Translations under genes and position numbers: made by a program
Notes under the pieces: model-generated
Told to the model about the DNA's origin: nothing
The model's database searches: none
Seen by the model: only the letters and a program-made list of their open reading frames with translations
In this document: positions 2,898 to 4,352 of the stretch, piece after piece
Layout: the number at the start of each line of letters is the position of its first letter
Numbering within the stretch: position 1 is the first letter of the stretch
Source: Thermococcus sp. 4557
Lineage (GTDB): Archaea > Methanobacteriota_B > Thermococci > Thermococcales > Thermococcaceae
Length of the DNA stretch: 64,000 bases
Assembly (NCBI RefSeq): GCF_000221185.1
Contig: NC_015865.1
Coordinates: 1,860,001 to 1,924,000 of the forward strand
Reading direction: 5' to 3'

Positions 2898-3296
2898 TCA
2901 GACGGCCTCAACCCCTACCTCCCGAATTCTGTCCCCTTCCAGCACAAAGGCCCCGTAGTTTCCCTTCTCGTCGACTATCAGCCAGACGACCGGCCAGAGC
3001 CTCATACCCTTCAAGTCCCTCCCGCTCGGCCTCGGCGGGCACTTCAGGTGGGAGTGGAAGATTCCGACAACCTCAAGGCCCCGTTCCTCGGCCCGGTCTA
3101 TGGCCTCGACCATCTCGATGGGCTCCATCTCGAAGGCGGTGGGCGAGTTCAGCCTGTTGGGGATGAAGCGGACTTCCTCGACTTCAATCCGCTCCCAGTT
3201 CCTGCGGCCGAAGAGCATGCCACATATTTCAATCCGCGAATTTTCCGCCGCTTTGATAATCCGCTTTAAATCTTCCCGGCGAATAACCATCATCAT
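2898..3296 (-). CDS. JAMM/MPN metalloprotease, desampylase-like
   Basis: A 132-residue protein with a complete JAMM zinc site: Glu in EICGMLFG (about residue 21) and HSH-x7-S-x2-D (HSHLKCPPRPSGRD, about residues 82-95). Archaeal JAMM proteins of this size remove ubiquitin-like SAMP modifiers from target proteins. The start is one of three consecutive ATGs at 3296, 3293 or 3290. There is no ribosome binding site, but a TATA box lies about 26 bases upstream, so the message is probably leaderless. Confidence 0.88.
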   Translation of the reverse strand: MMMVIRREDLKRIIKAAENSRIEICGMLFGRRNWERIEVEEVRFIPNRLNSPTAFEMEPIEMVEAIDRAEERGLEVVGIFHSHLKCPPRPSGRDLKGMRLWPVVWLIVDEKGNYGAFVLEGDRIREVGVEAV

Positions 3297-3316: not shown

Positions 3317-3328
3317 CCTTATAAGTTT
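3317..3328 (-). promoter_or_regulatory. TATA box of leaderless JAMM gene
   Basis: On the minus strand AAACTTATAAGG centres near 3322, about 26 bases before the first ATG (3296). This places the transcription start at or next to the start codon. Confidence 0.55.
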
Positions 3329-3360
3329 TGGAGCGCCGAGAGGTCTTTGCCGGTGATAGG

Positions 3361-3510
3361 ATGAAATGGGCCCTTACACTCCACGGTGGGGAAAACCACG
3401 GCGAAACCATGATCCTCCACGCCGACAGCGCCGATGAAGCCAGGAGGATGGCGATAAGGGAAATGAAGCGGAAGGACGCAAGGGTCTTCGAGCTGGAGAA
3501 GATCGAGTGA
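3361..3510 (+). CDS. 49-residue microprotein A
   Basis: The start is ATG 3361 behind GGTGATAGG. The product has exactly 49 residues: two predicted strands, a helix (ADEARRMAIREMKRKDA) and a final strand (VFELEKI). It shares length and the pattern A-x-R-x-A-x-x-E-M-x4-A-R-x2-E-L-E with the microprotein at 3704, so the two are probably paralogues. No known function. A DNA-binding, antitoxin-like or modifier role is possible but not shown. Confidence 0.7.
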   Translation: MKWALTLHGGENHGETMILHADSADEARRMAIREMKRKDARVFELEKIE

Positions 3511-3703
3511 TTCTTCTTCCCCAAATTATTCTTTCCGGCACTCCCTGCGGCGGGGCGACACTTGTGGCTATCGCGACGATGATGCACGCCAATGTATATT
3601 TTGGTCCGGACTGTTATGTGCTTTGATGTCGAAATCTGTGCGACAATGTTTTTAAATCCTTCCAATTTTTCTATCACCCACAGTGATATACCGGGGTGAT
3701 GGC

Positions 3704-3853
3704 ATGCTCGTGAGAATCGTCTACTACATGAACAACACCCTCCCCAAGGAGAGGATAGTCGTCACCAACGACATGAAGAAGGCTGAAAGGATAGCGCGGG
3801 AAGAGATGGAAAAGCTTCGAGCGAGGGGCTATGAGCTCGAGTGGGTGGCCTGA
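3704..3853 (+). CDS. 49-residue microprotein B
   Basis: ATG 3704 follows GGGGTGATGGC and TGA ends at 3853, giving 49 residues. It opens with a strand (MLVRIVYYM), then a second strand (ERIVVTND), a charged helix (KKAERIAREEMEKLRARG) and a terminal strand (YELEWVA). It has the same layout and length as the gene at 3361. A T-rich TATA-like tract (TTTTTAAATCC, about 3649-3659) lies upstream, so it has its own promoter. Function unknown. Confidence 0.7.
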   Translation: MLVRIVYYMNNTLPKERIVVTNDMKKAERIAREEMEKLRARGYELEWVA

Positions 3854-3890: not shown

Positions 3891-4352
3891 CTAAAGCCCG
3901 TAGATTATCAGAATTAGCCCCATCCACGTTGCCACGAAGTACGCGGTTATCGTGGCGAAGTGGAGCGGTATGGCAACCAGGAGCATGAGTCCGCCAGTCT
4001 TCAGCATCTCCGCTCCGGTGTCGTCGGACATCCTGGAAATGGCGCGATAGAGGAAGTAGAGGCTCAGAAACTGCAGGGCCAGAAAGGCCGCATGGACCGT
4101 GTTTATCACCGCGGGGCTCGCTTCCATTGGGGTTATCCCGAGAGTTTTGCTCCATCCGGAGATTCCGAGGGTTATCTTCGCCCCGTAGAGGGGAAGTGAA
4201 GCGATGAAAACGATGAGCGACCTTTTGATGGCCTCCCCGTACTCCGGAAGCTCTCCCATGAGGAGCCAGAGGCCTACGACGGCCAGCGGATAGATGTACA
4301 TCATCAGAATCAGCGTGAGTGCGAAAAGAACCTCAAGCCTTCTAACGTTCAT
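3891..4352 (-). CDS. Four-helix membrane protein, unknown function
   Basis: A 153-residue protein with start at 4352 behind GGTGGTTCC. Hydrophobic segments near residues 8-30, 45-62, 85-105 and 120-150 indicate four membrane helices. No transport or enzyme motif is seen. It is convergent with the microprotein at 3704 and about 30 bases upstream of the CDC48 terminus region. Confidence 0.7.
   Translation of the reverse strand: MNVRRLEVLFALTLILMMYIYPLAVVGLWLLMGELPEYGEAIKRSLIVFIASLPLYGAKITLGISGWSKTLGITPMEASPAVINTVHAAFLALQFLSLYFLYRAISRMSDDTGAEMLKTGGLMLLVAIPLHFATITAYFVATWMGLILIIYGL

Follow-up and report, generated by a model that had tools for sequence, protein, structure and literature searches.

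The glycolytic regulon of the Thermococcales is a model for archaeal gene control. Its motif, the Thermococcales glycolytic motif (TGM, TATCAC-N5-GTGATA), is described in the available sections of two papers as bound by Tgr/TrmBL1. Where TGM lies downstream of the TATA box it is a repressor site, which is freed by maltooligosaccharides (PMC4158304, PMC4706686). The available part of another paper places a TGM-like site at a gene reported to be outside Tgr control (PMC12628685).

The locus compared here lies in the Thermococcus sp. 4557 genome (2,011,320 bases, 2.01 Mb), within an analysed stretch of 64,000 nucleotides (the window). It contains two short ORFs, A and B. The portions of literature retrieved for small proteins, TGM, and JAMM/CDC48 together with Thermococcus contain nothing recognisable as A or B, and the available parts of PMC4247193 and PMC5316973 give no occurrence for novel or small ORFs and TGM.

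ORFs A and B and their family

ORF A (3361-3510, + strand) and ORF B (3704-3853, + strand) each comprise 49 codons and a stop codon, are separated by 193 bases, and encode the proteins P0001 and P0002. A has a TATA-like box, TTATAA (3319-3324, +), conserved across the aligned upstream regions, and a ribosome-binding site, GGTGAT (3352-3357, +), just 5′ of its start codon. B has the TATA-like box core TTTAAA (3651-3656, +) and also a GGTGAT site (3695-3700, +) just 5′ of the start codon. The pair, its spacing, and the separate start signals, all noted in a preliminary description made from the sequence alone, are thus present as described. Codon variation in both ORFs is highest at third positions. 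The same description proposed comparing synonymous and nonsynonymous change, and this comparison gives purifying selection on both genes. The median dN/dS over unsaturated pairs is 0.15 for A (255 of 1326 pairs, from the 52 of 53 sequences with exactly 49 codons) and 0.11 for B (237 of 946 pairs, from 44 of 61 sequences, the 17 dropped having 47 or 48 codons). A and B are real protein-coding genes.

The two proteins resemble each other in sequence and predicted fold. The pattern A-x-R-x-A-x2-EM-x4-AR-x2-ELE, already recognised in the preliminary description, occupies identical positions in both, from A27 to E46 and with no gap. BLASTP of A against B gives E 4e-4 in a single comparison, and profile-profile alignment places residues 15-48 on 15-48 without gaps (probability 88%, E 3e-6). 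In the 94 genomes, the A profile (A1) finds 27 further places at E<=0.1, of which 21 are B loci, including all of the best 14, and the secondary matches of the B profile at E<=0.01 are six A loci. In 2000 column shuffles (z 5.4) and in a further 2000 confined to secondary-structure class (z 4.0), no score reaches the gapless family-versus-family score. Only register 0 scores in the register test, which took in the 49 A and 39 B sequences that are distinct and exactly 49 residues long. By these sequence measures, the resemblance exceeds chance. AlphaFold2 models built on the family alignments (mean pLDDT 93.0 and 94.5) agree with the strand-strand-helix-strand layout proposed earlier for both proteins, with strands at 2-8 and 15/16-20, a helix at 24-37/38, and a strand at 42-48. 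Reciprocal profile similarity in whole genomes, equal length, and equal fold characterise A and B, on sequence comparison, as ancient paralogues duplicated within the Thermococcales, and the earlier suggestion of a small family holds in this sense. A is probably the derived copy, because the B family is wider; the resolution of a MobB tree (44 loci) is too weak to place the origin of A.

Both frames are clearly conserved in related genomes, on which the preliminary description had made the pair depend, proposing a pattern search as the check. Of 94 Thermococcaceae genomes searched in full, 53 have A, all of them in the window's genus, and 61 have full-length B, covering four of six genera. The B count leaves out G045, whose 27-residue match (E 0.08) lies inside a long frame. 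The phylum-wide search with the B profile (115 genomes) adds a single partial copy in G088, and none of the nine genomes of genus g3, which we take to be Pyrococcus, is matched by this profile. A genome_contigs scan with B finds four loci, all Thermococcus. The IMG/VR viral contigs contain no relative of A or B by either profile. Among plasmids, B has no match, and A has a single weak and partial one (E 0.9) that is not credible.

The two genes do not always occur together. Among good genomes (at least 90% complete and at most 5% contaminated), B is found without any A in 15 from three other genera, and in 3 of 49 from the window's genus. In one of these three, G062, B lies at the end of a contig, so that A was possibly lost to assembly. 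A occurs without B in 9 of the 49, and A and B are far apart in two genomes. B is dispensable, since the nine genomes with A alone retain the motif regulon. In one of the nine, G021 (L071), the region after ORF A has kept the B promoter with its TATA box and a one-mismatch motif, and the gene is deleted after about 11 bases. In this genome a regulated microprotein gene was lost recently.

A and B match no curated family. The window proteins have nothing below E 0.02 in Pfam, NCBIfam, or PHROGs. Pfam searches of all 53 and 50 family members yield scattered weak matches in a few members each and no clear family, the best being CRM1_repeat_2 (E 7e-4, 3 of 53 members). The PDB contains no significant match for A or B by sequence or by profile; an FtsH match in this search adds up weak, partial matches that span about 20 residues and was discarded. 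Every Foldseek E-value against the PDB is above 0.1, and a viral structure library has no match to B at E<=0.001. VIA-align places T7 Gp2 bound to RNA polymerase among the best (Z 6.4 to 6.6, rmsd 1.7-2.0, 48 aligned residues; Foldseek E 0.6 or worse) and YkzG lower (Z 4.3, rmsd 2.2, 42 aligned). Dmd, PurS, L18a, and protein G match about equally well. Domains of the ribosomal L18a/LX, PurS, protein G, and RAM/NikR types are also seen in the fold comparison, with none clearly ahead of the rest. The fold tells little, and the matches to these models give no function.

The predicted glycolytic operator upstream of B

The predicted operator of B is a perfect TGM, TATCACCCACAGTGATA (3672-3688, +), a palindrome that fits TATCAC-N5-GTGATA without mismatch. 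It begins 21 bases after the start of TTTAAA, downstream of the TATA box, and ends 15 bases before the start codon; its position is given relative to the TATA core and the start codon. Among the B promoters, 44 of 61 have a motif with at most one mismatch and 56 of 61 with at most two, and five have three or more. The place of the motif is nearly constant, mostly 15-17 bases 5′ of the start codon. In the 58 of 61 promoters whose motif has no more than three mismatches, the half-sites have a mean of 1.64 bits, a value somewhat inflated by the choice of the best match, compared with 0.56 for the spacer and 0.39 for the 5′ flank. In contrast, none of the 53 A promoters has a motif with at most one mismatch, and one has a motif with two. 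The preliminary description, which stands as regards the family, overlooked this operator and its absence at A.

The genome of the window has 22 places with at most one mismatch to TATCAC-N5-GTGATA, against 3 for a reversed control. Three copies, including that of B, are perfect; the other two lie beside a 4-alpha-glucanotransferase-type protein of GH57 and beside an alpha-amylase. Among the other 21 places, 14 adjoin Pfam-confirmed sugar genes, and seven adjoin other or unidentified genes. The sugar genes comprise 4-alpha-glucanotransferase, alpha-amylases, ADP-phosphofructokinase, glucose-6-phosphate isomerase, aldolase, TIM, enolase, FBPase, an AFOR-family oxidoreductase, glucan phosphorylase, branching enzyme, and a sugar-binding protein. 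The seven remaining places (G000:C1:1042563-1042579, 1783986-1784002, and five others) have one-mismatch motifs beside genes that are not obviously sugar-related, such as an ABC-type ATPase, and are possibly new regulon members or chance occurrences.

No motif with at most one mismatch occurs upstream of CDC48 (36 regions), MobB (44), Hsp20 (27), or LSm (43). Two of 43 regions upstream of JAMM have one, and these are read as the B-side motif seen from the divergent side. Between genera, two with B have a motif excess (g4, 127 against 64 in the control; g5, 68 against 23). The nine genomes of g3, a genus with no B, have none (38 places against 36). Against this, G093 of g6 has 19 motifs and no B.

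The genome also encodes, next to the maltodextrin operon, a Tgr-like protein of the TrmB family, P0003, which carries a TrmB and a Regulator_TrmB domain and has orthologues in most genomes. B therefore combines a promoter motif, its location downstream of BRE/TATA, and a genome that encodes Tgr/TrmBL1. The operator of B is conserved, perfect in the window, and fixed in place, and a motif with at most one mismatch is absent from all 53 A promoters. These results make it very likely that B is a member of the Tgr/TrmBL1 regulon, with repression on peptides and induction by maltodextrins, and indicate that A is not. This predicted place of B in the glycolytic regulon is what the analysis adds, and a sugar-induced microprotein of the Tgr regulon is the best-supported reading of B.

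Genomic neighbourhood and alternative explanations

The usual gene order is LSm, MobB, JAMM (-), A (+), B (+), sometimes a membrane protein, CDC48 (-), and Hsp20 (-). In the window, the divergent neighbour of A is a JAB/JAMM metallopeptidase-like protein (2898-3296, - strand; Prok-JAB E 4e-17), which is often, though not always, beside A or B in relatives. A small protein between B and CDC48 (3891-4352, -) has no Pfam match, looks membrane-bound, and occurs in part of the relatives only. Wide flanks are available for 39 of the 53 A loci; JAMM lies directly upstream in 26 of them and B directly downstream in 26, while 11 lack B and two have it elsewhere. JAMM has B itself as its divergent neighbour at 16 loci with B alone, most of them in other genera. 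A second JAMM version, about 52% identical, is found elsewhere in G024, G028, G020, and G072, where the window type is not seen, and so there are probably two JAMM subfamilies. At L108 (G001, genus g2), a tree of weak resolution places MobB among those of the window's genus, and JAMM is 68% identical to that of the window, hinting at a transfer of the MobB-JAMM-B block.

A heterodimer was proposed in the preliminary description. Tandem genes on one strand, with 131-205 bases from the A stop to the B start in 26 of the 39 wide-flank loci, and proteins equal in fold and length would suit a complex that works only as a pair. Such an obligate pair is unlikely and does not agree with the distribution, because each gene often occurs without the other (A alone in 9 of 49 good genomes of the genus; B alone in 3 of 49 and in the 15 from three other genera). 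The differing promoters and the separated genes of two genomes also speak against it. An optional A-B dimer is kept as a rival reading. A functional tie of A and B to protein quality control, through the adjacent JAMM protease or the CDC48 ATPase, is comparably improbable. JAMM is the divergent neighbour in the 26 A loci and the 16 B-only loci, and CDC48 and Hsp20 are nearby in most. However, JAMM is missing from the position directly upstream at 13 of the 39 A loci. Since A and B are kept where the neighbouring JAMM is absent, the link looks positional, and a different role is suggested by the separate promoters together with the glycolytic operator of B; JAMM partnership was rejected as the main role.

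The resemblance to T7 Gp2 and YkzG in VIA-align would fit an action of B on the transcription machinery, like that of T7 Gp2 or RNA polymerase epsilon, with A as a constitutive counterpart. The Foldseek values and the comparable fits of PurS, Dmd, L18a, and protein G leave this reading with a low probability. Far less probable is that the conserved element is a small RNA or a 5′ hairpin instead of proteins. The palindrome could form a short hairpin, and Rfam has one weak match over A (17.4 bits against a threshold of 39). An RNA element was nevertheless rejected on the coding pattern, seen in the codon positions and dN/dS, and on the absence of paired changes, which follows from a left half-site that varies while the right one is nearly invariant.

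Proposed role and related systems

The preferred explanation, which taken as a whole is considered likely, is that A and B are two genes of one duplicated family, with B under Tgr and A expressed independently. Coding status, paralogy, the operator and its conservation, its genome-wide company, and the Tgr gene are its observed part. A single family was duplicated within the Thermococcales to give A and the more widespread B. During growth on peptides, Tgr would occupy the motif between the TATA box and the start codon of B and block transcription. Maltodextrins would release Tgr, and B would then be made alongside the enzymes of starch breakdown and glycolysis; this repression and release follow, by analogy, published work on other TGM promoters. 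A would have lost the sugar switch, or never had it, and would be expressed independently.

The B protein may tentatively be viewed as a small modulator that binds a partner, either an enzyme or a regulator of sugar metabolism, and A may do likewise for another partner. A more specific version, also doubtful, is that sugar-induced B binds and tunes either Tgr or a central enzyme in the archaeal switch between glycolysis and gluconeogenesis, and that A is a paralogue freed from the sugar switch, with a different partner. If true, this would add a post-translational layer to a regulon that is thought of as transcriptional. The conserved 49-residue B, with its near-universal operator copy, is a good candidate for an overlooked player in the regulon, and A and B represent a clean microprotein duplication in which one copy is predicted to be under the sugar switch and the other is not. 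Deletion and tagging are routine in Thermococcus kodakarensis, where B is readily testable.

Proteins of this size and fold, such as T7 Gp2, T4 Dmd, and RNA polymerase epsilon (YkzG), act by binding larger proteins, which favours the small-modulator reading of B. They are equal to A and B in size and order of elements, and 42-48 residues overlap in fold. They differ in that there is no significant sequence or Foldseek match, and middling Z-scores are common for so small a fold. SgrT and CP12 are bacterial small metabolic regulators, short proteins that are made when a carbon route is active. B is possibly similar to them in kind, a guess that concerns function alone. The closest system is the Thermococcales glycolytic regulon itself. 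According to the available sections of the two papers, its known members are for the most part enzymes or transporters and include some hypothetical proteins (PMC4158304, PMC4706686), whereas B has 49 residues and no known domain. B nonetheless resembles these members in having the same operator in the repressor position, alongside known regulon genes in the genome.
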